Shown here piece by piece: positions 10,421 through 56,501 of a stretch of 64,000 nucleotides of DNA. The DNA lies in the NCBI GenBank assembly GCA_022824185.1, contig JAJEAU010000003.1, positions 1 through 64,000 on the forward strand, written 5' to 3'. Numbering within the stretch: the stretch's first letter is position 1; every line of letters begins with the position of its first letter. The notes beneath the pieces are model-generated. The model was not told where the DNA came from. It did no database searches and worked only from the letters and a program-made list of their open reading frames with translations. The DNA comes from Dehalococcoidia bacterium (GTDB lineage Bacteria > Chloroflexota > Dehalococcoidia > Lucifugimonadales > Lucifugimonadaceae). The translations under genes were made by a program, and so were the position numbers.

Positions 10421-10735
10421 CTACCTCGCCGTGTCGTGTTCTCTCCAGTCGGGTACATGTGCGCTCAGCAGCGCCTTGAAAAGTTTGCCGTGGTTCGGCA
10501 CACGCAGATGAAGCAGTTCATGGGCGATGACTAAATCTTGGAAGCCCGTATCTTGGTCGGCCAGATCGTCGGACAACGTGATGATGCCAGAAATCGAGCA
10601 GGACCCCCATTTTCGTGTCATTTGGCGAACTCGAACGCGCGGCATGGGCACGTTGAGAACACGCGCCCAATGTTCCACACGCTCGCGGACTGCGTCGCGT
10701 CGGTTTTCAGTCTTCACCATCGATGTCCCGATCAA
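10421..10735 (-). CDS. YgjP-like/M48-type metal-dependent hydrolase
   Basis: [37 protein letters not shown]; overlaps hsdR end. Confidence 0.75.
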
Positions 10736-13703
10736 ACAAGATCTCTATTATTCGGTCCACAGTTCGCGCCCGTTCGTCGCCGTCCATTCTCATAAGCGGG
10801 AGGTAGAGTGCCATTCTGAGCTGCCTCTCTTCATCTCTGTTGACCGCTGCATTTGGGAATCGGCCAAAAACCGCCTCGACTTCGTGGGCCAAAACGATTG
10901 GACTGATCCCGGCGGAATCGAGCGTTTGGCTGTCTTTCAACGACCAAAACACGCTGAACGCGCGCGGCGTGAGATCGCTTTCCTTCGCGGCTTCCAAGGC
11001 CGCTTCCTTCTCTCCGACGAGGGCGGCCAGCATCTCCATCGCCTGAATCCCCGACGTCTTGAGATCGCCGATGTCGCTCAAGATTTGCTCGGCGCGATCC
11101 TTTAACGGCCTCAGCACAGGTTCATGATCAGACCTTTCTCGCTGAAAGCTGCGAACGAAGTTGAAAACCTTCGGTTCTGGAGGGCCGGGTTTGCGGCGGA
11201 GCCTTTCCAAGGTACGCGTGTCGAACGTCAATGATTGCGTCGCATCACCCAAGGCATTCATGATCACGGACTCCTCGACGAGCCGCCTAGTTTTCTTCGC
11301 GAGGTCGGGATCGAAATAGGGAGGGACGGAGAAGGCTTCGCGAACCACCGCATACAGTTCTGCGAGTCGCTTGAGAGTATCGAGATGATCACGCAGTTCG
11401 GCCGTAGGAGAGAGTATCTCCCACAACGCCTCGATCTCCTTGAACGCGGTGAAAAAGGCTTGACGCTCGTCTGGGTCCAAGAAATGCTGATACACGACCT
11501 GTTCCAAGTCCGCGTCCGCGTCTCGCCCGTCAACGCCGAACGGCTCCCCGTCATCGGCGATAATGACCGCAGATCCGTCATTCGTTCCGTATTTGAGATA
11601 TCTTCTTCGCGCCTGCTCCAGTTTCTTTTTTAGTTCATCCATCAGGACATCGAGACCCTCGATCGCGCCGTTGACATCGGAGGAATCGAACTGCAACGCT
11701 TTCTTCAACTCGCGCAGAACGCCGACGAAATCTACGACGAGGCCGATCGGTTTTCCGATTCCCTCCGAGTCGACGTAAGGCCGATTCACGCGTGCTATCG
11801 CCTGAAGCAACACGTGGTCCCGCATCGGTTTGTCCAGATACATGCAGTAGAGCAGCGGAGCATCGAACCCGGTCAGCAGCTTATCGGTGACGATCAGGAT
11901 CTTTGGTTCCCCATCAGCCTTCTTAAACATCAAGCGCGCATCCGCCTCTTCTTCAGGAGTGATCTGAAAGTCGGCAACGAGACGACGCTTTACGATGTCG
12001 TCTGGATTCTCGGTGTAGACCGGCACGGACCACTCTGGTGGAAGATGCTTGTCGAGCGCGCGTTTGTACTTGGCACATGCCTCACGATTGACGGCGACTA
12101 GAAACGCCTTGTACCCAAGCGGTTCGACGTTGTCTCTGAAGTGCTTAGCCACGAACTCGGCGACCTTTTCAACGCGATCGTCTGCGGACAGGAACGTGCG
12201 GAGGTCGACAGCGCGGTCGAGAACCCTGTTCAACTCGTCGATGTCGGTGACGCCTTCACTGTCCGCCAGTTCGAAGAACTCTTTGTCCAGTTGTTCGACG
12301 GGGACCGTCAGGTCGCTCGGGGCCATCGTGTGGCGGATCGGCAAGGTCGTCTCGTCTTCGATCGACTCGGCGATGGTGTATTTGTCGAGGTATCCCAACT
12401 CATCGTCCGTGCCGAAGATCTTGAACGTGCCTTCGCCGTGCTCGGTTCTGGCGATTGGCGTGCCGGTGAAGCCGATGATGGTGGCGTTGGGCAGCGCGCC
12501 CATGAGATACGTTCCCAGATCCTTGGCGACGGAGCGGTGCGCTTCATCGATGAAGACGTAGATGTTGTCGCAAGTGTTGGCGTCCTTCTCGATGCCCTCG
12601 AATTTGTGGATCATGGAGATGATCAAGCCTCGACGGCCGCTCTGCAGCAGGTCGCGAAGCTTCGCACGAGAGTCGGCGCGTGCAACTGGGATGTCCTGCT
12701 GGTGCATCTCTCCCAGCAACCTGTCCACCCATCCGTGCAGCTGTCCTTCCAACTCGGTTCGATCCACGACGACAATGACTGTAGCGGCGCCAAAATCCGC
12801 CTTGCGCTCCAAAATCAGACGTGCGGACGTGAGCAGGGTGAATGTCTTTCCGGACCCCTGCGTATGCCAAATCAATCCTCGCTGCTTGTTGGGTTCCGAA
12901 CAGCGCCGGATAATCTGTTCGACGGCGCGGCGCTGGTGTTGCCTTAGGACCGACTTCCGCATCTCGTCGTCTTCTACATAGAACAGAATCCAGTCACGCA
13001 AAATCCGTAGAAAGTCGGTCGGCTCGAAAAACGACTGAACAGCGAAGCGATAGCTCTCGTCTTGTCTTTCCTTCCAACGCGCCATGAACCGACGCGAGAT
13101 GTTCCACGTCACGCCGTACCAGTAGTCGAAAATGTGAGTCACGTTGAAGAGCTGCGCCATTCCCGTCAGTTCCGGCGTCTCGATCTCGTAGCGCCGCAGC
13201 TGGGTGACTCCGCGCTCTATGGCGTCGGCATCCTTGGGGTTCTTATGCTCGACGATGGCGACCGGCACGCCGTTCACCAAGAACATCACATCGGCGCGGT
13301 TGCCCTTGCGAGCCGGTGGTTTGAGCGTCCACTCCCAAGTGACATGGAACGAACTGTTGCTCGGATTTTCGAAGTCGACGAGTTGGACTCGTCGATACCG
13401 TTTCGCTTCGTCATCGAACCATTGCCGCTCCCCGCGCAACCATGCCAATGCCTGACGGTTGCCTTCGATGGTTGCCGGCAAAGCTTCGAGGTTTTCGATC
13501 ACGGAGCGAATGGCATCGTCCGTCATCCATGGGTTGAACTTGCCTAGCGCAGCCTCAAGTTCATCGCGGAACATCAGCCCTGATACGCTGCCGCGCTTCG
13601 CGGTCGCATCTGCCGGAGCGATCGGCTTCCAACCGATCTCCGCGGCGTGGCGAACCAAAGGAAATTGAACCGTCGATGCCTCTTTTATGGTTGATTCAGT
13701 CAT
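10707..13703 (-). CDS. hsdR: Type I restriction endonuclease subunit R
   Basis: [44 protein letters not shown]. Confidence 0.95.
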
Positions 13704-13737
13704 GGCTGGTCTTCGATGCGAGGGTGGTAACTTGGTT

Positions 13738-13830
13738 GATCTCGCCCCTATCTCGCCTCTATCGCGCCTCTATCTCGCACCTATCTCGCACCATCACGCA
13801 TCTATCTCGCACCATCCGCACGTTTCCAGC
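13738..13830 (-). repeat. Degenerate ~11-12 bp tandem repeat between two genes of the RM operon
   Basis: Minus strand: GGTGCGAGATAGATGCGTGATGGTGCGAGATAGGTGCGAGATAGAGGCGCGATAGAGGCGAGATAGGGGCGAGATC. Confidence 0.7.
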
Positions 13831-15214
13831 GAGTCAACGGTCCGCGAGCCGTGGATACGATCAGTCCGCTGTTTCTCAACTCTTCCAGAGTCGTTCGCAC
13901 TTGTCGCTCGCTGACACCAGACCCCAAGCGCGCATGAATCTCGCGGCGCGTCAATCCGTCCTCAGCGTTGTCCAAGAGCGCGACTGTCATCTCCCGCCTT
14001 GCTTCAGGCCCGTTCATGTCGCCGGTTACAGGCTGGGCAACGAATTGGCCGGGCCGGAACCGCACGGTGACAGATCCTCCAGCATCGTCAATCTCGGGTG
14101 TCGGAAGCCCGGCTCCCTCTGCCAGATCCACCATCCTAAGCGTTCCGCTTCCCCACTCCTCAATAATCCCGCGCCGATAGAAGGTGCGGGCGATCAATGG
14201 ATTCCACGGACGAGACTCGTGCGGCGCGAACAACAATTCCGGAGTCAAACCGAAGTGCAACGAACCGGAAGACGTTACTTCCAGCCGATCATCGTATACC
14301 GCTATACCGATAGAGCCGCCACCTATCGAGTAGTCACGATGACACAGCGCGTTCGCGATCGCCTCACGCGTCGCCAACGGCGGATACAACGGCTCGTCGA
14401 TTCGCTCGAAACGGTCCTGCTCGAACCGTCCGGCAATGGGGAGCGTGTCGCGAAGGAATTTCTCGGCGTCCCCGAAAAGGGTGAAGGCATTGCCGTTGAA
14501 CTGCCGATTATCTAGAAACTCCATCCGGTCAGTTCCTCGGAATCGGGCGACGCGCAGCAGACACTGCGGCATGTCAAGTTCTAGGCGTTGAGGATCGCCA
14601 AAGAGAACGACCGCCGCTCGCAGCAACACATCGTCTCGCAGCAAACCGAGACCACGCAGCATGTCAGATGGGTCACGGCTCAACGGCTCCTCGAGACGCC
14701 CGCGCCGGACCGCCTCGGCTACGGTGCGTTGAATCTCTGCCGTGTCGAGATCTGCGAGAGTCCAGCCAGCGGCAGGCTGGTTCTCCCAACGCTGCTCGCT
14801 GTGCATCCGCTCGAACAACATTCGGTTGTACTCGTCGGCAGACATCGCCAAAGTCGTGTTGCCTATGCGACGGTACGCGGCACCACGATAGGTGTACGGC
14901 CTAGATGCACCTTGGCCAGTGCCTACGACTATGACTTCACGGTCCTCATCCACGCGGACGCGTTCGATGCTTGGAAACGCTGGAGGGTCGATGCGCCGAA
15001 ACTCAGCGCTCAAGTCCTCGATGGTCCGCTCGCCGACCTCCTGACCTACCACGCTCCCATCATCCTTCACACCGAACAGAACCTGCCCACCACCCTGGTT
15101 CAGGAAGGCACACAACGTCATCGCCGCTTTGCGGCGAGCACCAGTCGTCTCCTTGAACTCCAATGTCTCGGACTCGCCGGAGGCGGCAAGGGTTGTGATT
15201 TGTTCCGTAGTCAT
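13802..15214 (-). CDS. AlbA_2/Schlafen-like ATP-binding protein with C-terminal winged helix
   Basis: ESETLEFKETTGARRKAAMTLCAFLNQGGGQVLFGVKDDG; ALCHRDYSIGGGSIGIAVYDDRLEVTSSG. Confidence 0.88.
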   Translation of the reverse strand: MTTEQITTLAASGESETLEFKETTGARRKAAMTLCAFLNQGGGQVLFGVKDDGSVVGQEVGERTIEDLSAEFRRIDPPAFPSIERVRVDEDREVIVVGTGQGASRPYTYRGAAYRRIGNTTLAMSADEYNRMLFERMHSEQRWENQPAAGWTLADLDTAEIQRTVAEAVRRGRLEEPLSRDPSDMLRGLGLLRDDVLLRAAVVLFGDPQRLELDMPQCLLRVARFRGTDRMEFLDNRQFNGNAFTLFGDAEKFLRDTLPIAGRFEQDRFERIDEPLYPPLATREAIANALCHRDYSIGGGSIGIAVYDDRLEVTSSGSLHFGLTPELLFAPHESRPWNPLIARTFYRRGIIEEWGSGTLRMVDLAEGAGLPTPEIDDAGGSVTVRFRPGQFVAQPVTGDMNGPEARREMTVALLDNAEDGLTRREIHARLGSGVSERQVRTTLEELRNSGLIVSTARGPLTRWKRADGAR

Positions 15215-15248
15215 CTCCTAGTGTTTGACCTTTAGACCTCGTTTCTCA

Positions 15249-15704
15249 CTAAAACATCATCTTGATGCTGCCGAGAATAGTGCCATCATTGGCAGGATGA
15301 TCGGCGCCGTAGAATTCGACTGTGAAACCTAGTTTTTCGTAGAAATGCTTTAGTTTGTCGAAGTGATCTCGGTCTTGCCTGCTCAGGTCTCCGCCAACAC
15401 CCGAGTGTCCCCGTCGTCGACATTCTTCGACTATTTGCCTAACGAGCATAGACCCCACACCTCGGTTTTCCATGTGGTCGCTGACTTGCAGGTCGACGAT
15501 GTGAGCAATCGGCAAATGTACTCGAGTTTCGAGATCGGGAAACTCTACTTCTCGTATTCGTACGGTCGCCTTGCCAATCCCAAAACCATGTCGCGACTCG
15601 GTGTGCCACGACACCTGCGTTACCGACTCGGCGACAGATACATCCCAAGTCACCCCGCGTCTGTCTCGCCATGGAAATTGCCTGAAAACGTCGCCAATTA
15701 TCAT
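15249..15704 (-). CDS. GNAT family acetyltransferase
   Basis: MENRGVGSMLVRQIVEECRRRGHSGV; FYEKLGFTVEFYG. Confidence 0.75.
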   Translation of the reverse strand: MIIGDVFRQFPWRDRRGVTWDVSVAESVTQVSWHTESRHGFGIGKATVRIREVEFPDLETRVHLPIAHIVDLQVSDHMENRGVGSMLVRQIVEECRRRGHSGVGGDLSRQDRDHFDKLKHFYEKLGFTVEFYGADHPANDGTILGSIKMMF

Positions 15705-15802
15705 GTATGTCCCTCTCTATTTGCTTTCGTTGATCTGTGCCTATTTCGACTCAACCAGATAAGTACCTGTTTTGTCGGTTTTCCGGTAGGGCTTGGAACA
15801 CA

Positions 15803-16372
15803 TTATTGGGAACCAGGCGTATGTGCAGGTTTAAATAGCCTCATCCTCGTTTCTTCCAGCTTGTCTTTCAGCAAATGTGCGAGCGACCTCAGGAACTCGG
15901 TTTGATAAACCGAGATCTCTCTTTCACCACTCTCCATCGAGTATCTGTTGCTGATGAAAGGTATGCGCCAATCCACGAATGCTTCTTTGGTCATATGCAA
16001 TCGGTTGAGCGAGTCAACGGTTTCTTCGCTCAGCCCGTTGTAGAGCGCAAGTAAGTCGTGGGTAATGGGAACGCTATCTGAGGGGTGGTCCAACGCCCAA
16101 AGCGACTTGACGCCGATTTCAAACGAATAACTGCTTATCACGGCTTTGACATTGGTGAGCGTGACCTCTTCGTCCTTACCTCGCGTCTGCAAGCCGTCTA
16201 CACGTTCCTGAAGGCCGTCCAATAGGTCACAGTACACCTCGATCTCATCTATGGCACGATGCGAGCGCCAATGTTCGTTGCCGAACAAGAATCTCTCAAT
16301 CGGGATAGCACCGACTGGCGTCGGATGGTCATTTCGAGGCGATTGCGCCGATGAATCCTGTTTCTGCTTCAT
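15803..16372 (-). CDS. Hypothetical, predicted mostly helical protein within type I RM operon
   Basis: 189-aa ORF overlapping hsdS by 4 nt. Confidence 0.55.
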   Translation of the reverse strand: MKQKQDSSAQSPRNDHPTPVGAIPIERFLFGNEHWRSHRAIDEIEVYCDLLDGLQERVDGLQTRGKDEEVTLTNVKAVISSYSFEIGVKSLWALDHPSDSVPITHDLLALYNGLSEETVDSLNRLHMTKEAFVDWRIPFISNRYSMESGEREISVYQTEFLRSLAHLLKDKLEETRMRLFKPAHTPGSQ

Positions 16373-17634
16373 GGCTGCTTGTCCATGGTCTCCGGTTTGG
16401 CCAGCTCATCCACCCCCATCTCCTCCGTCATCAACGCATGCAACAAAGCCTTGAACAACTCTCCCAACACAGCACGCTTCCGACGATGCAGGTCAATCTT
16501 GCGGTCGATGGCGTCAAGTGTGGCGATGATTTCACGTTGCTCATTGAAGTTCGGAACCGGAATCTTGAACGTCCGAAGCTTCCCTGCGCTGATATTGGAT
16601 TGTCCAACCGCTCGGCTGGCCAGTTGCTTCAATCTCGATTGGGCATCATCCCAATTCAGATAGTGATTTAGGAACCGAGGATCAAGACGCGTTCCATTGA
16701 CTAAAACCCGCACAAGGTAGGAGGCGAAAACCGCGTCGGTCGTCGTCTCTACAATCGCTGTTCGTCCTACTAGTTCGTAACTGTTAGTTCGATTGAAGAG
16801 GATGTCACCGGGATGGACTCGATAGACCCCAGCCGTTTCTTCATCGATGTTGACGTACTGCAAGTCACGCATGACCACTTTCCCATCCTGCTGACAGTTC
16901 ATCCGTAATATCGGATAGCGGCCAGACTTTTCGCCTCGCACTGAGAGCCCATACTGCAACTGATGAGCGAGGTCACCGATTGGCACCACTTCCCAACCCT
17001 CCGGCATCAACCCGATCTCCGTCTCCTTCTGCGCCTCCCCGCGCACACCATGAGTGAACAGCATCTTCATGGCGGCGCGTTTCAACTCTTGGGCGACCGC
17101 GATGATCTGTTCCTGAATTCTTATCGCATCGCGTACCTGGCCGAGAACCGCGTTTACTGCTTGTTGCTCACTCAACGGGGGACGAGGAACCTGCAACTCT
17201 GAAAGCCTGTTACGCGACAGGTTAGGGATGGTGGTTTTGTTACCGGCGCCCTCGAAGATTCCGAGTTGTGTGAAAGCGGACTGGAGGAAAAACACATAAA
17301 AGCGGGGCTCGATGTCGGAGACGATTGGCCGTAGCCGATGTAGATGGTTCTGAAACGACATAATCTCGATTTCGCCGTTCCAAATGGCAGCACGTCCTAT
17401 CTCCCCGCCTTCGCAAACTAGCAAGTCCCCCTGTCTGAGTGATTTAGTAGACAGTTCATGATCCGACATCGACATCTCATCTACGGTCGTCAAATCAATC
17501 TCGTCCCAGAGAACGTTGGATGTCCGCAGAAACGGTGTCTTGGAAGGGCCGTTACGCGCGGCCGCGTTCATTGTTTTACCTGCGCCTAGTTCAAACAGTT
17601 CCCCAATGGGGTGCCATGTCCACGCGTTGCTCAT
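16369..17634 (-). CDS. hsdS: Type I restriction specificity subunit
   Basis: Two target-recognition/conserved halves ([41 protein letters not shown]). Confidence 0.92.
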
Positions 17635-19508
17635 CCCAGTTTCACCAACATCTTCGCTAGCGAAGCATCGACATCGAGCGCCTCATCCTCAAGACGCTGA
17701 ATCTCAGCAATGATTTCTGTAATCGGACGCTGAACCGCAGTGTCAGTTTGCCCCACCCACCGACTCGGACTAAGGTTGTAATCAGCCTCTCGCGCCTGTT
17801 CGCGGGTGATGACCGCTAGCTCGCCCTCGACCGGTTCGCCCTTGAGGAACACGTCGGCAATAGGTTTTATCTCCTCATCCGGGATGTAGTTCTTTGGACG
17901 TCCCTTGCGGACGCGTCGACTGGCGTTTAGCAGCACGATCTTGTCCTTGCGAGTCGCCGGTTTGCGTTTCGAGAGCACGACGATGATGCCGGCGGCGCTC
18001 GTGTTGTAGAAGAGGTTGTCCGGTAGCAGAATCACTCCTTCGACAAGGTCGTTCTCCACGAACCACTTTCGGATGTTGCGCTCGCGGTCCTCGTTTTTGC
18101 TGCCGGATCCGCGCGTCACGGCACCGGTGTCGAGCACCACCGCGGCGCGTCCGCGATCGCTCATGCACGCCAGCGTGTGCTGGAGCCATGCCCAATCGCC
18201 TCTTCCGGTCGTGACCCCGCCCGCGGTGCGGAAACGGTCGAACTGGTCGTTGGCGAAGATGTCGGGATTGAACGGCTGGTTCCACATCGGATTCGCGACC
18301 ACGATGTCGTATGTGTCGATGCCGCCCGTCGCCGTCTTGAACTTGGGATTGATCATCGTGTCGCCGCGCTCGATTTTCACATCCATGTCGTGGATGATGG
18401 CGTTCATGTGCGCCACGGCGTAGCTGTCGGCCTGCAGTTCCTGACCGTAGAGTTTCAAAGGGATAGGGCTCAATGGATCGAGATCTCGGGCGACGAGTTG
18501 AAGCTTGATGAGCAGCCCTGCCGAACCGCACGCGTAGTCATGGCACGTCTCCCCCGGACGCGGGCGCATCAGATTCGCCATCAGATATCCCACTTCAGTA
18601 GGCGTGAAGAACTCTCCCGCGCTCTGACCCGAACCCTCCGCGAATTTTCGCAGCAAGTACTCGTAGGCACGTCCGAGGAAATCCGGTTGGACATCTGCGA
18701 GCCCCAGCCGGTATCTCGGATCGGAGAAGGTCTCAACCACCTCGGCGAGTTTCGACGGGTTGATGTCGCGCTCGCCGTTGCGTTCGGTTGCGAAGTCCAC
18801 AACGTCGATTACGCCCGACAGCGAAGGGTTCTGCCGTACAACCGCGCGCACAGCAGTCGTCAAGTGCTCTCCGATGTCGCGCGGTTGGGTGCTTCGGCCA
18901 CTGTCATCGCGTGGCCACTCGTAATCAACACGTCCGCTGATGATCCCCCAGCGCGCCACAGGCGGCAAGTAGAAACGCAGCACCCGATGGTCCGACTCGG
19001 CAATCTGCTGCGCTGCCTCGCGATCCTCGTACACCTCCGTGAGTCGATCGATCTCATCGTCGAACACGTCCGAAAGACGTTTGAGGAATAGAAGCGGCAG
19101 CAGATAGTCCTTGAACTTCGCCGCGTCTTTCTCGCCACGTATAGAACACGCCGCGCCCCAAAGCATCTGCTCCATCTCCTGCATGTCCATAGGCCCTGAA
19201 GCGGATTTAGTTGCCTGCCGTCCTCGGGACCGCCTGCGAGTCACGCTGGCAGCAGACGCCGCTTCGTCCACGGCCGGCGCGGCCGTGTCGATGCCAACCT
19301 CGGCAGCCAGCGCGGCGATGGCCGTCCGAGCTGCCTTCTGGGGCATCGTCACCCCACCCTCCCATCGGTTCACCGTCGCGAACGAGACGCCTAGCCGCTC
19401 CGCGAGCTGCTCTTGTGTCAGGTCTAGCTTGGCGCGGATAGCTTGGAGAGTTGGGGAGATTGTCTGTTGGTTCGTTGTATCTATCATGGTTAGGGTCTCA
19501 GATTCCAC
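17631..19508 (-). CDS. hsdM: Type I DNA methyltransferase with N-terminal XRE-type HTH
   Basis: [65 protein letters not shown]. Confidence 0.92.
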
Positions 19509-19512
19509 ATGG

Positions 19513-20238
19513 TCAGTCAGAGAGCCACTGAGCGTATGACTGGACGTCGATCATCGGCACGGTGCCGCTAAACTGAAGCTGCGAGATTAATTTGAACAGG
19601 AAGGCGGTTGCAGGTTTACCCCCTGCGTAAGTCTTGTACGACCCGTTCTCTTCGTCGAACGTGAAATAACCGTGGACCGCAACACAACCAAGGTCGAGAT
19701 GGTCATCACCCCGTCCATCACCAAGGGCCGTATGCAAAGACTCGCCGAGGGCAGGTTGCCAATCACTCTCCAAGGTCAACAGACCTCCTAGTATCGGAAT
19801 AAGCGGCTTTGGTGGATAGGTTCCACCGGCATGAGGGATCGGTAGGCTGGTCCGGTCAAGCCGACGCACACTTGCCACCTTCTCGCGTGCATATTTGACA
19901 TGCTGGGCATTAAGCGTCTGCTTTGCTTCAAACGCAGCGTATACGCTTTCCGCAGGGATGATGGTCTGCGCTTCGTAGCGGAAGATGAAGGGCGAGTACT
20001 GACGGTCGTAAACGACTACGTCGATTTGATCGCTGAACGCTCCGGTGCAATCTACGACATGGGCTTTGGCCGCTCGGTAACGTTTGGGCAGGTACGTGTC
20101 GAAAAGGTCCAACCAGACACCCTCGCTAGCGTCTCCCTTGGTACCTGGGTGTGCGAAACTCTTCCGAGCGGTTTCCAAGCGTCGCTGGATGTCGTCATGC
20201 AATCCGGCGAGGAGTTGCTTCAACGACCACTCGTTCAT
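19513..20238 (-). CDS. nucC: CBASS effector endonuclease NucC
   Basis: [42 protein letters not shown]...; PD-(D/E)XK elements [10 protein letters not shown] and AAFEAKQ; ATGA overlap with upstream ATPase. Confidence 0.9.
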
Positions 20239-21173
20239 GCAGCACCATCCCGGAAGGGTGCTGTAGGAGTCATTTCTTGAGTTATCTTCAGCGCGCGTTC
20301 GGCGTCTACGGGACCGTCGGGGTACGCGTCGAGCACAATTGCAGGTATAAGCCTCTGAGTGAGATCCGAGAACGTAAAGCCGGATTCCCCATGCTGACGC
20401 GGCCCGGTTGCAGCGACAATAGCAGCGACCTGAGTTTGCGAAAATCCCAAATCGCGGAGGTGTGGCGACAACACAGCCACGCGCTGCTCGCTGCTCGGCC
20501 GGCGGAATGTGAGGATATCTGCTGCACGGCGTTGCACGGCCGGGTCCAATGCTCCAAGCCGGTTCGTGCACATGATCACGGCTGCCGGGAGCTTGCGGTT
20601 GGCAAGGCGGTCTACCCCTCGGATGAAGGCATTCACACCGGCGCGGTCTTCGTGATGCATCTGGGCCGCTTCTCGCGATTGAGCGATGGCATCGGCTTCG
20701 TCTACCAGCAGGAGTACCGCTCCGCGTGATGAACCGTCAATGTCTCTGCGCTCCAAAGCCTCCTCCTCGACGTGATCGAAAGCGGCGGACAACAATTGGG
20801 TCATTTCGCCGACACGTCCTTGCCCACGAGTTGAGAGGCTCATTGGGAACAACATGATTTTGACACCCTCCCGACGAGCCACCTCGTCGCCGATGGTCTC
20901 TGCGAGCTCAGTTTTCCCGGAGCCGACGTCGCCTGCGAGCACAACTAGAGGCGGTCTTCGCAAAACTGTGTCGAGCACTCCGATGGCTCTTGGATGGTGT
21001 TCGTTGACCCAGGTGTTCAGACCGGATGGATTGATTAGCAGGCCGAGCATCTTGGCCAAACGGGTTTTATGGTTTTCCAACCCGACGAGGCGGTGAAGTC
21101 GCTCACGCGCTTCAACATCGGGCAGGGCGATACGTCGATCAAACAACTGGTCTATGGCAGGCGTCGTCGTCAT
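20235..21173 (-). CDS. cap6: TRIP13/Pch2-like AAA+ ATPase (CBASS Cap6)
   Basis: LAGDVGSGKTELAETIGDE Walker A; AVLLLVDEADAIAQSRE Walker B; next to HORMA gene. Confidence 0.85.
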   Translation of the reverse strand: MTTTPAIDQLFDRRIALPDVEARERLHRLVGLENHKTRLAKMLGLLINPSGLNTWVNEHHPRAIGVLDTVLRRPPLVVLAGDVGSGKTELAETIGDEVARREGVKIMLFPMSLSTRGQGRVGEMTQLLSAAFDHVEEEALERRDIDGSSRGAVLLLVDEADAIAQSREAAQMHHEDRAGVNAFIRGVDRLANRKLPAAVIMCTNRLGALDPAVQRRAADILTFRRPSSEQRVAVLSPHLRDLGFSQTQVAAIVAATGPRQHGESGFTFSDLTQRLIPAIVLDAYPDGPVDAERALKITQEMTPTAPFRDGAA

Positions 21174-21688
21174 CGGTAGCTCCTCAAGCTGGCACGATCG
21201 AGGGCACGGCCACCCGACGAGTAGGTAAGGTCTGTGTTCCAGTAGCCGTTGATGCCGGGTTCTGCTCCCGTAGTTCTTCGGAAGGGCAACCGCCTTTCGA
21301 TTTCCTTCTGACGCTGCCAGGTCAACTGATTCCACGCAGGGTTGTGGGTTAAGTAGCTGTGGAAGGAAGCCCCAACTGTCCGGGCACCGGGCCGAACCCG
21401 ACCTGGATCATCATCGTTGGCTGTCGCACCGAATAGGTCTCGGGCAGTGTAAAACAGCGTCGGCTCGATCCAGGAGCCGTTCCGCCTAAAACCGTAGGCC
21501 ACGGTATCAAGGACTCCTTCCTTGAGGAACTCAACGACTTCCAATTCAAAGGCGTTGATCCAACTGTCCGACGGCTCGTCGTAGAACCTTTGCATCCGCT
21601 TGAGATCGGTGGCGACCTTGGCCGCCATATGCCTAGCGTGCGTCCGAGTGAAACTTTGCGTGTCGGTAACCGTATAGCTGTAACTCAT
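21170..21688 (-). CDS. cap7: Bacterial HORMA-domain protein (CBASS Cap7)
   Basis: MSYSYTVTDTQSFTRTHARHMAAKVATDLKRMQRFY...; position between CD-NTase and TRIP13-like gene. Confidence 0.82.
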   Translation of the reverse strand: MSYSYTVTDTQSFTRTHARHMAAKVATDLKRMQRFYDEPSDSWINAFELEVVEFLKEGVLDTVAYGFRRNGSWIEPTLFYTARDLFGATANDDDPGRVRPGARTVGASFHSYLTHNPAWNQLTWQRQKEIERRLPFRRTTGAEPGINGYWNTDLTYSSGGRALDRASLRSYR

Positions 21689-21695
21689 ATTCTCC

Positions 21696-22661
21696 TCACG
21701 CTTGGAACGAAGAGCCAAACACCCTTCGCCAGTAGTAGACGGTCTCTTGCTTGGTCGGTGCAGCGAGGGCTGCGTCAATAGCGTCACCCGCGTCCAGGGC
21801 GGCTTCTACAATCGCATCAGCCTCCGCCTTCGTGTACAGACCGGCAACGTTGTTCTCCGCATTCACCGGGTCGACTATCTGCACATGATCGGAGAACCGT
21901 CTAACCGCCGAAGGGTGGTAATAGTCGTTGAAGACGATCTTCTCTCGCATGTCGGTCCGGGCGACGTAGGTAAAGAAGTGTTGGAGCGCTTCGGGGTAGT
22001 CGGAGAAATCAACTCCTTGGTCACCAAGATGTGAGAGGATCATCTCGATCATGAAGGACTTGAACCGGAAGCCCGGCTGCTCATCCTTGATGCCGCCCGC
22101 CCAGAACTTCACCAGTCGAATCACCTGAGCAAGATGTTGCTCATGCGCATTTTTGCGTTTCCGAATGAACTCTAGGTGAAGGGGGATGCTGGTCTTCAGG
22201 AAGGAGCCATCGTCTTGGCTGACAAGCCTCCCGTACCACTGCGGGTCCTCGTCGTAGAGAATCGGCACCACATCAACGTCGAGTCCAGTTCCACGAAATG
22301 AAACCGTGACGCTATAGGTTTGAGGTTTTACCTGGTCAGGACTGAAGTTCGGGAAGGCTTTTCGGAGACGTTCAGCCAGGTATTCAAGCAACTCGGCGAC
22401 ATCTTCGGGCGTGTCAGCCCCGCCGATGTAGCAAGCCAGATCGATGTCATTCAGGGACCGCAGTGCAGTTCCCTTCGCAAGACTGCCTGATAGCAGCATC
22501 TTCCTGAGAGTGAAGTTGGGATTCTCGCTCAGGTATCCATCGAGTTTTTCACGGAGCCGTCGGGCTTGTGCACGATATTGACTGGCTCTGTCTCGCGGAA
22601 GATTAACCCGTTCTTGGGCGAACCTCGCGATATCGTTATGATCAACGTGCTTTCTCGCCAT
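21696..22661 (-). CDS. cdnC: CD-NTase (cyclic oligonucleotide synthase)
   Basis: LLSGSLAKGTALRSLNDIDLACYIGG and GLDVDVVPILYD catalytic acids; symbol inferred from operon type. Confidence 0.87.
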   Translation of the reverse strand: MARKHVDHNDIARFAQERVNLPRDRASQYRAQARRLREKLDGYLSENPNFTLRKMLLSGSLAKGTALRSLNDIDLACYIGGADTPEDVAELLEYLAERLRKAFPNFSPDQVKPQTYSVTVSFRGTGLDVDVVPILYDEDPQWYGRLVSQDDGSFLKTSIPLHLEFIRKRKNAHEQHLAQVIRLVKFWAGGIKDEQPGFRFKSFMIEMILSHLGDQGVDFSDYPEALQHFFTYVARTDMREKIVFNDYYHPSAVRRFSDHVQIVDPVNAENNVAGLYTKAEADAIVEAALDAGDAIDAALAAPTKQETVYYWRRVFGSSFQA

Positions 22662-23429
22662 AAACCTCACCTCGCGCGACGGGCGATCTCTTCGACTCCA
22701 TGAGAGAGCACGCTTTGCGCGCCAGTCTTCCGGCATCTGGAGATGTCCTTCAGATATGTTATGTCTGCAATAATTGCAGTATAACATTCAGTCTTTTTCG
22801 AAGCCGACAACTGAGTACAGCCTTTCGAGTGAGAGGGCCCAAAAGGTAGCTGTATTCACGTAGTCTCAACGGTCAACGGAAACCGCGATGTAACGGTTCT
22901 TGAGTTCGGCAGTCTGTCATTAGGTCCGTACTTCGAACCCGAGACCCCGACGGATTGCTGTGACCTCACCCGCTAACTGCGTGCGTATCAGCAGCGGCTC
23001 AGTGTCATGGACGTGTACAGGGGTTCCTGTTTTGTTGAAGATTTGCTTCGACGCCGCAGATTTGTGAAACGATCCGCCGAGCGCCGAAGATGTCCATGAC
23101 CTGCGACTGAGAAGCTGCTGCTCTTCAACCCCGTAGATGCGAAGGGTAGGTAGAACGCCTTGGAGGATCTGGAGTGGCGTGTGTTCGCGGTGGAGGAAGG
23201 AGTGGGCATGCGGTTAGACGGTGAAGATACGCAGTTCGGTGATGTCGTTCCGGCGAGGACTTCGTTGGCATGCCCCGTTGCCCGCGGGAGCGGATGTAGA
23301 ACCCATACAAATGTCGGTGAAGTTCGTTCAACAAACACACAATCGACCTTTGCGCACTGATTTCGTCAAGTAATCCCGATTTCAATCACACGGCGTCCTG
23401 CGACGGCCGTCAAAAACGCCGAAAACGGC

Positions 23430-25017: not shown

Positions 25018-25938
25018 TTGATGCGGTCATTCTCGGATCGGCATGGAACCAGTAGTTTGTTTAAGATTGCCAATTCGAATTTGGGCTTGCGCCTCGCTTC
25101 GGAAAACCAGGAATCGGTTGAAGTAATTGAACCAACTCTGATTGCAGAAAACGATTACCTGCGCTCGCGATTGATTCGACACTTGGTGCAAACAAATGAA
25201 CCAGTCGAAGAAAACCCTTCGACTGATGTTATTCCTAAGACTGTCATCCAATTCTGGCACGATGCGAACGATATTCCTGCAGATGTTCAAGAATGTCTTG
25301 ACAGCTGGCGACCACTTGAAACGCAGGGGTTCCAGCGCCTCTTGTTTGACGACATCGAAGCCAGGAGATTCATTGACAGACATTATGGCCGCGGATTTGC
25401 GGATGCTTACGATCAGTGCCTACATCCGGCAGTGCGTTGTGATTACTTCCGTCTTTGTTACATGGTCAAATTCGGCGGGTTTTACGTGGATGCCGACGAG
25501 TTCTTTCAAGGCAGTGACTGGGAACCGTCTTTCTGGGATGGTCGGCTCAAGATTCAACCGATGTGTTACGACACTTCGACCTCAAATATGGTTCCGGACA
25601 CGGTTTTCACCAAGAATGGCAGCGATTCGGAACACTGGATCTTCTACGTCAACAACAACCCACTCGTATCGCCTCCGAATCACCCTGTTACACGGTTGGC
25701 CCTAGGGCGCTCTACCCGGATCCTTTTGGGGCCTAAAGAGAAACCACACGACGTACAGTCAACGACCGGGCCGGGCAACCTTACCGCCAGTTTAGTCGAA
25801 CACGCGATCTCCTTGGAGATCGAGGGCCGCGAACCGGATTTTTCGTTCCTTTACGCATGGGATGCCGTGTCCGTTAGTCAATGGCCCCTGAGTTATAGAA
25901 ACGACGAACGAAACTGGAGACTGTGGGATCCGGTATGA
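25018..25938 (+). CDS. OCH1/GT32-like glycosyltransferase (DXD)
   Basis: IPKTVIQFWHDANDIPADVQECLDSW; AVRCDYFRLCYMVKFGGFYVDADEFF. Confidence 0.82.
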   Translation: MMRSFSDRHGTSSLFKIANSNLGLRLASENQESVEVIEPTLIAENDYLRSRLIRHLVQTNEPVEENPSTDVIPKTVIQFWHDANDIPADVQECLDSWRPLETQGFQRLLFDDIEARRFIDRHYGRGFADAYDQCLHPAVRCDYFRLCYMVKFGGFYVDADEFFQGSDWEPSFWDGRLKIQPMCYDTSTSNMVPDTVFTKNGSDSEHWIFYVNNNPLVSPPNHPVTRLALGRSTRILLGPKEKPHDVQSTTGPGNLTASLVEHAISLEIEGREPDFSFLYAWDAVSVSQWPLSYRNDERNWRLWDPV

Positions 25939-26045: not shown

Positions 26046-28307
26046 TTGAACATCGCTACGTACCCGCAGATTTTCTCCCGGCTAAGGCAATGGGTGATGC
26101 TTTGCTCGAGGCGTCTCGAAATGTCTGCTAGGTCTGAATCATTTGCGGATGGGGAACTTGGCAACGCTATTCAGCGAATATACGTAATTAACTTGGATCG
26201 GCAACCTAGCCGATGGCATCAGATGAGTCGAGAACTCGGTCGTCTACGCGACCATTCTGGGCAGCCGTTATCAGCGATCAGCAGACGCTTCTCTGCTGTG
26301 GATGCGAGATTCCTCTTGGATTCTCCATGCACCGAGTTAGTTCATCCCGAATATACGTTGGCAGACCAACTTTTCGTTCAACCCGAACCACGACTGGATG
26401 GTTCCTTGAATCCTCGGGATCGGACAATCAAGATGACTAGGCCCGAGGTAGCAGTTGCACTCTCGCACATCGAGGTTTGGAAATTGATAGCGGACGGTGA
26501 TCCGCAGTACACCCTTGTGTTGGAAGATGATGTCTTTTTTCGGAGAGGTTTCGCCGCAACCTTGGACGATGCTTGGAACGAACTAATGGGTCTAACCAAA
26601 CACGCCCCTCCGGTAGATTTGGTGTATCTGTCATACGACGATGCAGGCAGAAAAACTCCCAGAAAACCTTTTTCCGAATTGCTGTTTATGCCCTTGACCG
26701 GACTTTGGCAATTGTCAGGGTACGTGTTGTCAAAGCAATGCGCGCGGAAGCTACTTGATCTGTTGCCTGTACGGGGTCCAGTAGACCTTTGGATGAACCA
26801 TCAATTCAATAGACTCACTGTATTCGCTACGCGCGAGCCCATCATCGAGCAGAGGCATGACGTACCATCGTCCAATTCATATTCTGTGTTACCCATCCTT
26901 TCTGAGGTCGGGGTTATAACGCGTGAAAAACCCTTGCTCGTCAAGAATTCTGCTTTGAAGCGACCGGTATTCGCATTCGGAGATGAAGGCTCCGGGTTGA
27001 CATCACTCGCAAGTGCATTGTCAATTCTAGGATACAGATGCTGTAGCGACTTTGATGGACTTCCAGAACGCGAGCATGCCGATTTGTTTGGAAAAAAACG
27101 AAGCAGGATTTTCGATGCATACGTCAACGTTGGTGCGCTCAATCCGCACGCTCTCATTCAACTAGCAAAGCTGTATCCCAAAGCTCGGTTCATCCTCACG
27201 GCTAAGGGCTTGAACCCAGCAGCAGCATCGAGCCGCGATTCGCTCGAAGCTTCGAACGCCCTAATCGAAGGCCGACTAACGCCGACACCCCTACCGTCGC
27301 AACTCTCGAAGTTAGTGCCTGGCAATGTGTTGGAGCTCCCAGACGATCATAATGACAAATGGGAATTGTTGTGTCGTTTACTGGATTGCGAATATCCTGC
27401 CCATGTATTTCCTGAGTGCGAGGATCGGGGTCAGCGCCGACTCGCCGATGGTTTCCATGCGTACGGTGGAGATCGGTCAAATCGTGTCAAATGGCTCAAA
27501 AAAGATGCGTCTCCATGGATTGTTCCCGAGAATGACCGCCCCGGATTGCGAGTTGACGGCTCTACCGATACCGAGCAAGGCGATTCAAATCGCTCGCTGA
27601 TTGTGGAAGAATTCGAAGATTTGGACGCGAAGCATTGGCTGCTAAGAGATGACACTTTTCCAAGTAACCTTGCACTATTCAAGCCCCAAAATTTCGAGGT
27701 AAAACCAGGTGACGTTGGACAACTAACGCTACGCAAAGAGAGAACGTCTGTGCGTCTGTATACTTCGGCGTCAATTGCAACTAGACACCGATATCGATAC
27801 GGTCGTTTCGGAGTCGAAGTGAAACCTACGAATACGTCTGGGCTGGTCACCGGAGTATTCTTGCATCGAAATGCACCTCGCCAGGAAATTGACCTCGAGT
27901 TCCTTGGCAGAGACACTACGAAATTGCTCGCCAATGTGTACTTTAATCCTGGAGACGAAGGGACGAAACTTGAATACGGGTATCGAGGCGCTCCGGCTTT
28001 GATCGACCTAGGTTTCGATGCTTCGTTAGATTTTCATCAATACGAAATAGAATGGCATCAGGACGTCATTCGTTGGCGAGTCGATGGAAGAATTGTGCAT
28101 GAACGCTTGGTTTGGGGTCCCACGCCTATACCTCATCTGCCGATGCAATTCAATGTCAACCTGTGGCATTCCAGATCGAAGGAATTCGCCGGTAAATTGG
28201 TCAACGTTGAGCTGCCCGCCCATAGCTATATCAAAAGTTGCAGCGTTATTGCGGCTGCGACACCAACTACAGCCCGTCAATTTGCAACGAGTTCCCGCGG
28301 GCCATGA
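26046..28307 (+). CDS. Fusion: GT25 glycosyltransferase - sulfotransferase-like domain - GH16 domain
   Basis: IQRIYVINLDRQPSRWHQM..., VALSHIEVWKLIADGDPQYTLVLEDDVFF (GT25); VFAFGDEGSGLTSLASALSILGYRC...PKARFILTAKG (sulfotransferase-like); RQEIDLEFLGRDTTKLLANVYFN...QYEIEWHQDVIRWRVDGR (GH16). Confidence 0.75.
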   Translation: MNIATYPQIFSRLRQWVMLCSRRLEMSARSESFADGELGNAIQRIYVINLDRQPSRWHQMSRELGRLRDHSGQPLSAISRRFSAVDARFLLDSPCTELVHPEYTLADQLFVQPEPRLDGSLNPRDRTIKMTRPEVAVALSHIEVWKLIADGDPQYTLVLEDDVFFRRGFAATLDDAWNELMGLTKHAPPVDLVYLSYDDAGRKTPRKPFSELLFMPLTGLWQLSGYVLSKQCARKLLDLLPVRGPVDLWMNHQFNRLTVFATREPIIEQRHDVPSSNSYSVLPILSEVGVITREKPLLVKNSALKRPVFAFGDEGSGLTSLASALSILGYRCCSDFDGLPEREHADLFGKKRSRIFDAYVNVGALNPHALIQLAKLYPKARFILTAKGLNPAAASSRDSLEASNALIEGRLTPTPLPSQLSKLVPGNVLELPDDHNDKWELLCRLLDCEYPAHVFPECEDRGQRRLADGFHAYGGDRSNRVKWLKKDASPWIVPENDRPGLRVDGSTDTEQGDSNRSLIVEEFEDLDAKHWLLRDDTFPSNLALFKPQNFEVKPGDVGQLTLRKERTSVRLYTSASIATRHRYRYGRFGVEVKPTNTSGLVTGVFLHRNAPRQEIDLEFLGRDTTKLLANVYFNPGDEGTKLEYGYRGAPALIDLGFDASLDFHQYEIEWHQDVIRWRVDGRIVHERLVWGPTPIPHLPMQFNVNLWHSRSKEFAGKLVNVELPAHSYIKSCSVIAAATPTTARQFATSSRGP

Positions 28308-28615
28308 ACACCAGCTTCACCGACCGATGCGGCCCGATCCGCCACGAGCTGCCAGATGTTTATCGAAACTCGCAGACCGGGTCGTCGATCTTGCTCTAGC
28401 GAAACATCGAAAAACACAGGATGTCCCGACTACGGTCGCTTTATCGGTGTCTCGCGGCGGCTAGTTTCCCAATTGTTGCGACACTCGGATGCCAAGTTGG
28501 TGGGGCATGGCGATCAACGCGACAATTCGTCGGCCAAATTCAATGGTCACAAACGTGAAGGACTATCGGTTATCGAAGCGCAAAATCAGGAAATCCCGAT
28601 TGTTGGAGGAACAGC

Positions 28616-29454
28616 ATGCCGATCCCTGAATCGATCCTCACCAAATGGAGCCATCATCGAACCGACGCGGCCTCCATTCAGGCGCACGAATCCATCCGAG
28701 CAGGTTTAGCGCATACGACTGGCTTTAAGAGGCGAATTATGAGATTTTTCTCCAGGGCTCCTATAAGAACAACACGAATCTGCGCCGGGACAGTGACGTG
28801 GACGTTGTGGTTAAGTTGAACTCCAAACTCAGGCCTCGCGTGGTCGCCCTCGCCGGCGAACAGTTGGAGGAAAACGATTCTCATAAAGTCGCCTATGGTC
28901 GTTGGCAATCATTCCGGCGCCACGCCCTTAATGCAATGAGAGCCAGATTCAGGGATAACGTGTCGGCATGCCGTAAGACATTGAAGATTGCGAAGGGCGA
29001 GACACAGGCGGACGCAGACCTCGTAGTCACGCTGAGTTTTAGAGAGGGCATCGGTTGTTGTCTTCCTGACAAGAGGCGTTGGGTGGTGAGCTATCCGCAC
29101 CAGCATCATCAACGTGGGTTGAACAAGGAACAGACCACGAACCGCCGGTTCAAACGAGTGATCCGGATGTTCAAGACTGCCAGAAACCACGCAGTAGACG
29201 AAGTTCTGATCGGCAGATACGTCGCGCCCTCATACTTCATCGAGTGTCTGCTCTTCAACGTTCCCGACGAACTGTTCTCAAGGAGACTCGAATCTACCTT
29301 CGCCGACGTCCTCGATTGGTTGAAGACTGCGAAGCTAGAGGACTTCCTGTGTCAGAATGGACGGGTGGCGATGATCGGCAACCAGCGGGAACAATGGACC
29401 ATCGCTAAGTCCCGAGCATTCGTCAAGTCTATGCAGCGACTTTGGTACATGTGA
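28616..29454 (+). pseudogene. CD-NTase/SMODS-type nucleotidyltransferase with frameshift
   Basis: MPIPESILTKWSHHRTDAASIQAHESIRAGL in one frame; YEIFLQGSYKNNTNLRRDSDVDVVVKLNS...NKEQTTNRRFKRVIRMFKTAR...YVAPSYFIECLLFNVP in another. Confidence 0.75.
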
Positions 29455-36961: not shown

Positions 36962-38131
36962 CTAGTCGTTCAGATAAGCGGACCAATCCTGCATGACTTT
37001 CCGCCTCTGCCGGAAAAGGTCACTGCGGAAATACGCCCCTTCGACACCTCTTACTGTGTGCGCCAACGCAGCCTCCGCGATCTCCCTTGGTTTCCCCGTC
37101 TCGGCACACCAGTCCCGAAAAGAGCTTCTGAAGCCGTGCGGAACCGCGTCGACTCCCAACTCCCTCAGAAGCTTGCTCATCGTCGAATCGGACAGCGCGC
37201 GTTCAGTTGGCGATGGGAACACGAGGCCGGAACCGCCGTACTTGAACTCGGCGTCGCTCAGCACCCTTAGAGCCATGTCGCTCAATGGGACGCGGTGTTC
37301 GCGGGACGCCTTCATCCGACTCGGCGGGATTGTCCAAGTTTGGGCGTCCAGATCGAACTCGTCCCAAACTGCCGCCCGGACCTCGCCGGATCGCGTCGCG
37401 GTCAGAACCATCAACTCGAAACACAGCTTGGTGGCAGGCCACGCCTTTTCGCTTTCCCGGACGCGTTCGATCGCGCCTCGAACCTCCGAATGATGCAATG
37501 CCCTTTGGCGACGCCGAGTGCCGGAGTTTTTGGGCAGCACGGCGTTGAGCGCTTCGCCCGCGGGATTGTCTCTCCTGAACCCTGCAGCCACCGACCAGTC
37601 CATGATCGCCGAGATGCGCTGCTTCACCCGGCGCGCCGTCTCCGGTTTCTCGTGCCAGATAGGCGTCAGCACCTTCAACACGTCCGATGTCTTGATTTCG
37701 GACACTTCCAGCCGTCCTAGCCGCGGCACGACATAATCGCGCAGACTCGCGCGCCACTGCCCCGCGCTCTTGCCACCGTCTCGCCAGCTCCCAGACTTGA
37801 GTTCGATCACAGAATCTGCCGCATCGACGAAAGTGGGTACGGCTGGTGTGGCGCGGTCAGCGCGTGGGTCTCCTCCTTCCACGACCGTTCGTGCGTTTTT
37901 GAGCGCCGCGGATCGAGCGCTCGCAAGGCTTACAACAGGATACGCACCCAACCCCACATTGGTCCGGCGTCCGCGGATCCACAGACGCTGCGACCACGAT
38001 TTGACAACCCCGCCATCAACGCGCGGCTTAACCAGCAGACTCAGACCGTGGCCGCCGCGACCATCGCCGTATCGACCAGGCTCGTTGATCGATTTGACAA
38101 AAGCAGCGGATAGACGCTTAGGACGTTCCAT
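36962..38131 (-). CDS. int: P4-type tyrosine recombinase/integrase
   Basis: LTATRSGEVRAAVWDEFDLDAQTWTIP...HGFRSSFRDWCAETGKPREIAEAALAHTV...AYFRSDLFRQRRKVMQDWSAYL. Confidence 0.92.
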   Translation of the reverse strand: MERPKRLSAAFVKSINEPGRYGDGRGGHGLSLLVKPRVDGGVVKSWSQRLWIRGRRTNVGLGAYPVVSLASARSAALKNARTVVEGGDPRADRATPAVPTFVDAADSVIELKSGSWRDGGKSAGQWRASLRDYVVPRLGRLEVSEIKTSDVLKVLTPIWHEKPETARRVKQRISAIMDWSVAAGFRRDNPAGEALNAVLPKNSGTRRRQRALHHSEVRGAIERVRESEKAWPATKLCFELMVLTATRSGEVRAAVWDEFDLDAQTWTIPPSRMKASREHRVPLSDMALRVLSDAEFKYGGSGLVFPSPTERALSDSTMSKLLRELGVDAVPHGFRSSFRDWCAETGKPREIAEAALAHTVRGVEGAYFRSDLFRQRRKVMQDWSAYLND

Positions 38132-38284: not shown

Positions 38285-38374
38285 TGGCGGAGGGGACAGG
38301 ATTCGAACCTGCGGTCACCGTTAGGTGACACTGGTTTTCAAAACCAGCGCATTAAACCGCTCTGCCACCCCTCC
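38285..38374 (-). tRNA. tRNA-Ser (anticodon TGA), CCA encoded
   Basis: GGAGGGGTGGCAGAGCGGTTTAATGCGCTGGTTTTGAAAACCAG...GGTTCGAATCCTGTCCCCTCCGCCA. Confidence 0.95.
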
Positions 38375-42083: not shown

Positions 42084-43067
42084 ATGTCTGGGATGACAAA
42101 GGAACAACTCGAACATTTCGAGCATTTTGGGTTTGTAACTGCTGAGCAAGTATTGGATCCTGAAGGGGTAATCGACCCGGTCATCGAGGAATATGCAGGG
42201 GTGCTGGATAGTCTGGCGGATGAGCTCTACGAGGAGGGGAAGATCAGCTCCAAATACGAGGATTTGGAGTTCGGTGAGCGGGTCACGCAAATCTACGCCG
42301 AGTCGGACGAGGTCTACAACGGCTATTTCGACTTTTCACTGCCTCAGGGCGGGATAACAGAGGACACTCCATTCTGGGCCGGTCCGGCGGTTTTCAACGC
42401 GTTGACCGCGCCGAGTCTATTGGATGCGGTCGAGTCGTTTATCGGACCAGAGGTCTACTCGAATCCGGTGCAACACGTGCGCATCAAGGTGCCGGAGAGT
42501 CGAGCGCCTCGGGATGAGAAGGGGCATGTGAAGTTCGGGATCACGCCGTGGCACCAAGATCAAGGCGTGGTGAATCCTGATGCGGACGAGACACAGATGT
42601 TGACGGTGTGGTTCCCGCTGATGGATGCCGACGTAGAGAACGGATGCCTGTCCGTAGTGCCGGGTTCGCATAAGAACGATCTGTTGACGCACTGTCCGGG
42701 TTTCGACAACGGGTTGCAGTCGGGACTGCAGATCCCGGAATCGGAGTTCGAGGTCGGCAAGGCTCAGGCCGTGCCGCTCAAAAAGGGCGACGCGCTGTTC
42801 ATGACCAAATTCACCGTGCACTCCTCGCTCCCGAACAACAGCGACCGAATCCGCTGGAGCTTCGACCTTCGATACAACCCGACCGGGCAGTCTACAGGTC
42901 GGACCAGCTTTCCAGGTTTCGTCGCTCGCAGCAAGAGCAACCCTGACAGCGAATTGCACGACCCGGCGATCTGGAATGAGCTATGGACCGATGCCAGAGA
43001 TTCACTGGCCAAAGGCAATCAACCGTCGTTCAACCGATGGGATGGTAGCGAACCCGCCTGCGCATAG
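42084..43067 (+). CDS. PhyH family dioxygenase, copy 3
   Basis: TPWHQDQGVVNPDADET; same length as copies 1, 2 and 4. Confidence 0.88.
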   Translation: MSGMTKEQLEHFEHFGFVTAEQVLDPEGVIDPVIEEYAGVLDSLADELYEEGKISSKYEDLEFGERVTQIYAESDEVYNGYFDFSLPQGGITEDTPFWAGPAVFNALTAPSLLDAVESFIGPEVYSNPVQHVRIKVPESRAPRDEKGHVKFGITPWHQDQGVVNPDADETQMLTVWFPLMDADVENGCLSVVPGSHKNDLLTHCPGFDNGLQSGLQIPESEFEVGKAQAVPLKKGDALFMTKFTVHSSLPNNSDRIRWSFDLRYNPTGQSTGRTSFPGFVARSKSNPDSELHDPAIWNELWTDARDSLAKGNQPSFNRWDGSEPACA

Positions 43068-43078
43068 GAGGGCAAATC

Positions 43079-56122: not shown

Positions 56123-56201
56123 TGTTCAATTCCTTCCGTGTCTACTCGCCACTTCGTGCGAGTTCCCTTTCACTTTCGACGCGAGAGAGGTGTGCTTTCG
56201 G

Positions 56202-56474
56202 TCACACCCCCGCTATCGAACTCAGCGCGAAACCAACGATCGCCAAGACCTCGCCGCCAACCAGCACCATCAACCATCGGATGTTGATCTCGATGCCTCG
56301 GAGCCGGGCGTCATGGTCTTCCTCGACCGTCCGTCGCAGACGCTTGACCTGATCGAGCAGATCCTTGTCTTCGCCTTCTGCTGAGCGGCCCCGAACCCCT
56401 TTGCGGTGCTTCTTGCGGCCAAAACCAGCCAGATCCTCAAGATCCATCTCCAGCAATACTTCGCGTGGATCCAT
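56202..56474 (-). CDS. Small hypothetical phage-module protein with C-terminal TM
   Basis: WLMVLVGGEVLAIVGFALSSIAGV. Confidence 0.4.
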   Translation of the reverse strand: MDPREVLLEMDLEDLAGFGRKKHRKGVRGRSAEGEDKDLLDQVKRLRRTVEEDHDARLRGIEINIRWLMVLVGGEVLAIVGFALSSIAGV

Positions 56475-56501
56475 ATGTCGTAAACCTCCGTCCCCGTCAT
56501 C

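Follow-up and report, generated by a model that had tools for sequence, protein, structure and literature searches.

A mobile cassette built around a GT25–sulfotransferase-like–GH16 fusion protein in bacterial defence islands and its possible role in protection against phages

Introduction

Parts of the locus described here have known relatives. GH16 licheninases, of the Bacillus BglS type and including ExoK, share a fold and the catalytic strand EIDxE(F/I/L), and GT25 glycosyltransferases, whether of bacterial lipopolysaccharide or of the viral and procollagen type, share the Pfam family PF01755, an EDD motif and a fold. The Sulfotransfer_4 family and the oxamniquine-activating sulfotransferases of schistosomes combine a strand-loop-helix with the motifs YPxAKxIxT and WxxLC, and the O-carbamoyltransferases NodU, TobZ and GdmN carry Carbam_trans_N and C domains. 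The anti-phage systems of P2 and P4 prophages and islands are small, compact, mobile cassettes located in hotspots and defence islands (Rousset et al., 2022; PMC9122126).

Within the window, by which we mean the whole 64,000-nucleotide stretch of a Dehalococcoidia contig (JAJEAU010000003.1) that was analysed, a single open reading frame unites features of the first three families. Its N-terminal part has the family assignment, EDD motif and fold of GT25 enzymes, its C-terminal part has the fold and catalytic strand of licheninases, and its middle part aligns with sulfotransferases over the strand-loop-helix and both motifs. It nevertheless departs from each of them: the GT25 is one part of a three-module protein; the GH16 sits behind the GT25 and a P-loop module, without a secretion signal; and the middle module has a shortened core and lacks both the conserved PAPS-binding basic residue and the 3'-PB arginine. 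An optional partner of the fusion has the domains of the NodU, TobZ and GdmN enzymes; unlike these it is embedded in a mobile glycosyltransferase cassette, and it is absent from the window. As a whole, the cassette resembles the P2 and P4 systems in mobility, compactness and location and differs from them in using proteins that no system known to PADLOC 2.0 employs.

Results

The fusion gene, present once in the host genome, comprises 753 uninterrupted codons, and its TTG start agrees with the conserved 'MN' start of its relatives. The initial annotation had read it as a GT25-like, a sulfotransferase-like and a GH16-like module joined in one polypeptide, quoting the motifs INLDRQPSRW, LEDDV and EIDLEF, all of which are found in the reading frame. 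Continuity of the frame and the existence elsewhere of full-length relatives with identical domain order confirm that it is real. An assembly artefact, named at the time as grounds for abandoning that reading, is excluded together with a chance fusion by the recurrence of the same architecture in many independent, unrelated assemblies.

All three Pfam domains exceed their curated cut-offs: PF01755 over residues 43-249 (E 3.7e-17; 63.3 bits against a cut-off of 24), PF17784 (Sulfotransfer_4) weakly over residues 316-388 (E 4.2e-6; 27.2 bits against 22.8) and PF00722 over residues 547-717 (E 1.7e-28; 99.7 bits against 22). In the PDB the N-terminus matches procollagen galactosyltransferase 1 (E 3.1e-5) and the C-terminus lichenases (E 3.5e-19). 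The NCBIfam models nearest to the GH16 part are BglS (E 3e-31) and ExoK (E 8.9e-22), both matches falling far under the equivalog cut-offs. An AlphaFold2 model of the whole fusion reached moderate quality (mean pLDDT 66, pTM 0.43), and therefore only its GT25 and GH16 matches were used; the former resembles viral GT25 proteins and the latter lichenases (TM about 0.85 of target), so that both assignments hold by profile and by fold. Across an alignment of 24 fusion proteins, GT25 residues E160, D161 and D162 and GH16 residues E614, D616 and E618 never vary. Both modules keep their active-site motifs. The GH16 domain has no signal peptide, a simple hydropathy scan predicted no transmembrane segment in the cassette proteins, and most relatives of the fusion possess a positively charged, amphipathic N-terminal stretch.

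A phage contig (L032, 9163-10705) encodes a GT25 that stands alone, sharing 34% identity with that of the fusion and lacking the other two modules; a further glycosyltransferase-like ORF lies beside it, and a tail-like protein containing long GTSGTAGTS repeats is encoded upstream. A comparison of the GT32-like protein of this contig with the one in the cassette gave no support for homology between the two.

A search with a profile of the middle region recovers sulfotransferases of solved structure (E about 0.001), the alignment coinciding at the P-loop, YPxAKxIxT and WxxLC, which makes a sulfotransferase ancestry credible. The earlier assignment therefore stands as a statement of ancestry, backed by PF17784 and the profile match. 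The PAPS loop reads PRTGT in solved sulfotransferases versus PGSGL in the fusion, the basic residue being replaced, usually by glycine; at the 5'-PSB position 315, glycine occurs in 18 of 24 relatives and lysine in one, leaving 23 without the basic residue. Three relatives (L017, L018 and L039) have lost the glycine-rich P-loop. No arginine of a 3'-PB site is present at positions 386-388 in any of the 24, and no conserved column, arginine or serine included, follows the YPxAKxIxT strand in the 24-sequence alignment. YPxAKxIxT and WxxLC are separated by about 31-62 residues in those relatives where both are reliably located by pattern, versus about 90 in the solved sulfotransferase 5tiz as aligned to the profile, and part of the core that sulfotransferases possess is missing. 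Structure prediction, which had been proposed as a check, bore out the GT25 and GH16 folds in the model of the whole fusion; a separate model of the middle region returned a P-loop core whose best matches are weak and mix kinases with sulfotransferases (TM 0.3-0.4). Judged by its sequence, the module appears homologous to sulfotransferases but degenerate. Sulfation is unlikely, because the PAPS-binding basic residues and part of the core are missing, and as a sulfotransferase the module is probably not catalytic.

A GT32-like gene upstream of the fusion, already noted in the initial annotation, has a PF04488 match above the cut-off and a conserved DxD motif (Table 1). It lies directly upstream at 24 of 25 loci, that is, at all 24 with upstream sequence, since the contig of the one exception ends 112 bp upstream of the fusion. 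Among plasmid records, the fusion occurs in nine, and these same nine are the only ones in which a GT32-like gene spans 80% or more of the query. Distances for the two genes are strongly correlated (Mantel r 0.84; 0 of 10,000 permutations). The GT32-like gene co-evolves with the fusion, their histories being in agreement. A carbamoyltransferase related to NodU, TobZ and GdmN, with GdmN and TobZ as its PDB relatives, accompanies them at 15 of 25 loci, placed divergently, upstream or downstream in several different gene orders; the ten loci without it include one truncated contig. None occurs at the cassette in the window, and none was found in the host genome, which is about 91% complete. Across the compared loci the cassette has no conserved polymerase, flippase, exporter or membrane gene alongside it. 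No exporter or polymerase adjoins the fusion, which argues against an ordinary role in polysaccharide biosynthesis. What the earlier reading of a single gene overlooked is that the fusion belongs to a mobile cassette of two to three genes, conserved and situated in defence islands.

Two partner genes are disrupted on individual plasmids. The GT32-like gene is split into two ORFs on an Aliarcobacter plasmid (L015, 11068-11917) and uninterrupted on three related plasmids, and an IS4-type transposase breaks the carbamoyltransferase gene of Rhizorhabdus wittichii plasmid pSWIT02 (L016, 14157-16718).

In the window the cassette is flanked on one side by a type I restriction-modification locus and a complete type III CBASS operon and on the other by an integrase and a tRNA-Ser (Table 1). 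The integrase and tRNA-Ser probably mark the right end of the island; a search for a direct-repeat att site flanking the tRNA-Ser island found none.

Table 1. Coordinates of the cassette, its modules and the surrounding island in the window
Feature	Position	Strand	Details and evidence
Type I restriction-modification locus	10707..19508	-	HsdR 10707-13703, HsdS 16369-17634, HsdM 17631-19508
AlbA/Schlafen-like protein, between type I RM subunits	13802-15214	-	
Type III CBASS operon, complete	19513-22787	-	NucC, TRIP13, HORMA, CD-NTase
CBASS NucC effector	19513..20571	-	PADLOC E 1.3e-109
CBASS TRIP13	20235..21335	-	PADLOC E 5.9e-131
CBASS HORMA	21170..21787	-	PADLOC E 7.4e-79
CBASS CD-NTase (oligonucleotide cyclase)	21696..22787	-	PADLOC Cyclase E 4.8e-142
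GT32-like glycosyltransferase, DxD	25018..25938	+	ATG at 25021; PF04488 E 3.7e-5, above cut-off
GT25 - sulfotransferase-like - GH16 fusion	26046..28307	+	753 aa, TTG start; Pfam and full-length relatives
GT25 module	26166..26915	+	residues about 41-290; PF01755, residue counts, viral GT25 fold matches
GT25 EDD motif E160-D162	26523-26531	+	invariant 24/24
Degenerate sulfotransferase-like P-loop module	26958..27395	+	residues about 305-450; PF17784, profile match, missing PAPS motifs, weak fold match
Linker, poorly conserved and low-confidence	27396..27590	+	residues about 451-515; mean column identity 0.40; pLDDT mostly <50
GH16 lichenase-like module	27591..28250	+	residues about 516-735; PF00722, PDB lichenases
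GH16 predicted catalytic motif E614-x-D616-x-E618	27885-27899	+	invariant 24/24
Tyrosine integrase	36962..38131	-	Pfam integrase; adjoins tRNA-Ser
tRNA-Ser	38285-38374		ARAGORN

Further reading frames in the window attracted attention, the first two by eye. A nucleotidyltransferase-like protein (GSYKNNTNLRRDSDVDVVV) may be encoded at 28580-29454 (+), its start seemingly in another frame; taken alone, 28798-29454 (+) has no Pfam match. Possible phage portal and head-tail connector-like ORFs at 54914-57353 (-) are perhaps a prophage remnant. Two tandem, closely similar paralogues of 327 aa occupy 42084-44062 (+); related repeats in the DNA occur close by as well as in sister genomes.

Full-length relatives of the fusion, located by tblastn and profile searches, are 38-62% identical to it, have the same domain order and occur in unrelated phyla, for instance in Cryosericum, Acidobacteria and alphaproteobacteria. 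Plasmids, conjugative ones included, bear them in Klebsiella, Citrobacter, Aliarcobacter, Rhizorhabdus, Sphingobium and Rhizobium, and they are found in IMG/VR contigs; 50,697 phage records yielded no match to the fusion. Only 4 of 5,426 E. coli genomes encode it. Of 393 genomes from the host's class, 6 have the cassette, as do a few more of the same phylum, and it is absent from 59 relatives examined. The E. coli copy, which has two genes (L019/L020), is located inside an integrative element that also encodes a T4SS, ArdC and an ABC-three-component system of Lamassu type. Three further carriers are prophages (L029, L030 and L031). Those of L029 and L031 contain phage terminase genes. In L030 the cassette lies just past the portal gene of a prophage resembling P2, in which portal, terminase, scaffold and capsid were identified, on the portal side where an anti-phage hotspot between gpA and gpQ has been placed (Rousset et al., 2022; PMC9122126). 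In the tree of the fusion, phyla are mixed: a copy from a Citrobacter plasmid clusters with those of Rhizorhabdus and of a P2-like prophage, and the window's own phylum is represented in separate clades, one of them beside a Rhizobium plasmid. The distribution is sporadic and reflects horizontal transfer, the fusion and its GT32-like partner moving jointly among unrelated bacteria via plasmids, prophages and defence islands.

The neighbourhood was contrasted with control stretches of the same genomes. At seven loci of the window's own phylum, all neighbouring ORFs of at least 150 aa, called mechanically, were taken by one content-blind rule (68 ORFs), and every second ORF from control stretches of the same seven genomes served for comparison (76 ORFs). 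With a PADLOC threshold of E 1e-15 or better, the neighbours matched 161 families and the controls 10, figures that do not count independent genes since PADLOC families are redundant. The neighbours include CBASS, type I restriction-modification, HmaB/HmaC, AbiEi/AbiEii and a PifA-like candidate; the control ORFs that matched are mostly methyltransferases and ATPase-like candidates. Elsewhere the neighbours were picked by hand, and among them PADLOC recognized Gabija, Druantia, Lamassu, Shedu, Shango, AbiD and AbiEii, among others; counts outside the phylum are therefore biased by selection. Half of the scanned loci (11/22) have a neighbour matching a dedicated defence protein at E 1e-60 or better; matches are weaker at six, consist of a DNA methyltransferase alone at one (L030) and are absent among the genes tested at four (L002, L004, L035 and L036). 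The cassette's own three proteins match no model in PADLOC 2.0. The cassette lies in defence islands and mobile-element hotspots more than controls do. Its structure, the conserved GT25, GT32-like and GH16 motifs, its mobility and its context in defence islands and a prophage hotspot are established.

Discussion

The fusion forms the larger gene in a mobile cassette of cytosolic glyco-enzymes that most likely shields the element or cell carrying it from competing phages or rival elements, by defence or superinfection exclusion, a reading to which we give slightly better than an even chance. The cassette is perhaps a new anti-phage or superinfection-exclusion system. We infer its protective function, acceptor, product and order of steps as follows. 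The GT32-like enzyme and the GT25 module would attach sugars sequentially to an acceptor common to most bacteria, which might be lipid-, nucleotide- or protein-linked, and the GH16 module would then trim or transfer the resulting glycan. The carbamoyltransferase, where present, would cap a sugar hydroxyl, and the degenerate sulfotransferase-like module may act as a scaffold or ligand sensor. That intracellular glycan chemistry of this kind, with a glycan built, remodelled and capped in turn, itself blocks phage propagation in very different bacteria is a more specific claim, which we put forward only tentatively. Mobile elements bear many non-defence cargoes, so the defence neighbours of the cassette may reflect shared hot spots only; it also counts against a defensive role that sets of glycosyltransferases and carbamoyltransferases are typical of surface-glycan and secondary-metabolite pathways. 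A literature search, to which most subscription papers and preprints were inaccessible, found no described defence system of GT25, GH16 and carbamoyltransferase.

The chief competing reading is that a surface glycan is modified and phage adsorption lost, a form of lysogenic conversion in which an envelope glycan altered at the membrane's inner face would mask phage receptors or change antigenicity, as in serotype conversion and unlike immunity inside the cell. Carriage by prophages and the charged, amphipathic N-terminal stretch are consistent with it, as are the facts that GT25 is the family of lipopolysaccharide-core glycosyltransferases and that surface sugars and Nod factors are modified by carbamoyl groups. 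Yet the host phyla are distant and their envelopes differ, the cassette has no conserved flippase, polymerase, export or membrane gene, and the GH16 domain, of a type that is normally extracellular, is here without a signal peptide; we regard such conversion as unlikely, if well short of negligible. The lichenase-like GH16 module would also suit neutral, hitchhiking cargo with a metabolic role in glucan, for example in making or remodelling a storage beta-glucan. This is improbable given that the linkage to the GT32-like gene is kept across phyla, that active-site residues are retained and that defence families are far commoner among neighbours than among controls.

The kinship of the carbamoyltransferase with GdmN, TobZ and the novobiocin enzymes recalls instead a small diffusible glycoside or antibiotic-like product, a carbamoylated oligosaccharide directed against competitors. 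The enzyme is missing from 10 of 25 loci (one a truncated contig), however, and was not found in the host genome, and genes for export, resistance or scaffold building are absent, which leaves a diffusible product quite improbable. As for the original proposal that one enzyme makes, sulfates and cleaves the same polysaccharide, its three Pfam domains do lie above cut-off, but the sulfation step lost its support with the absent or unconserved sulfotransferase motifs and missing core stretch. Export machinery is lacking as well, and we consider this activity very improbable.

If the favoured reading of phage protection is true, the cassette would represent a defence system built wholly of glycan-active enzymes, a chemistry that, to our knowledge, none of the established intracellular immune systems uses. 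Even if it achieved surface conversion only, the action of one cassette across such differing cell envelopes would be surprising. The fusion of a synthesizing and a hydrolysing enzyme in the cytosol would make the acceptor a tractable question, and the copies in E. coli, Klebsiella and Citrobacter render the cassette testable with standard strains and phages.
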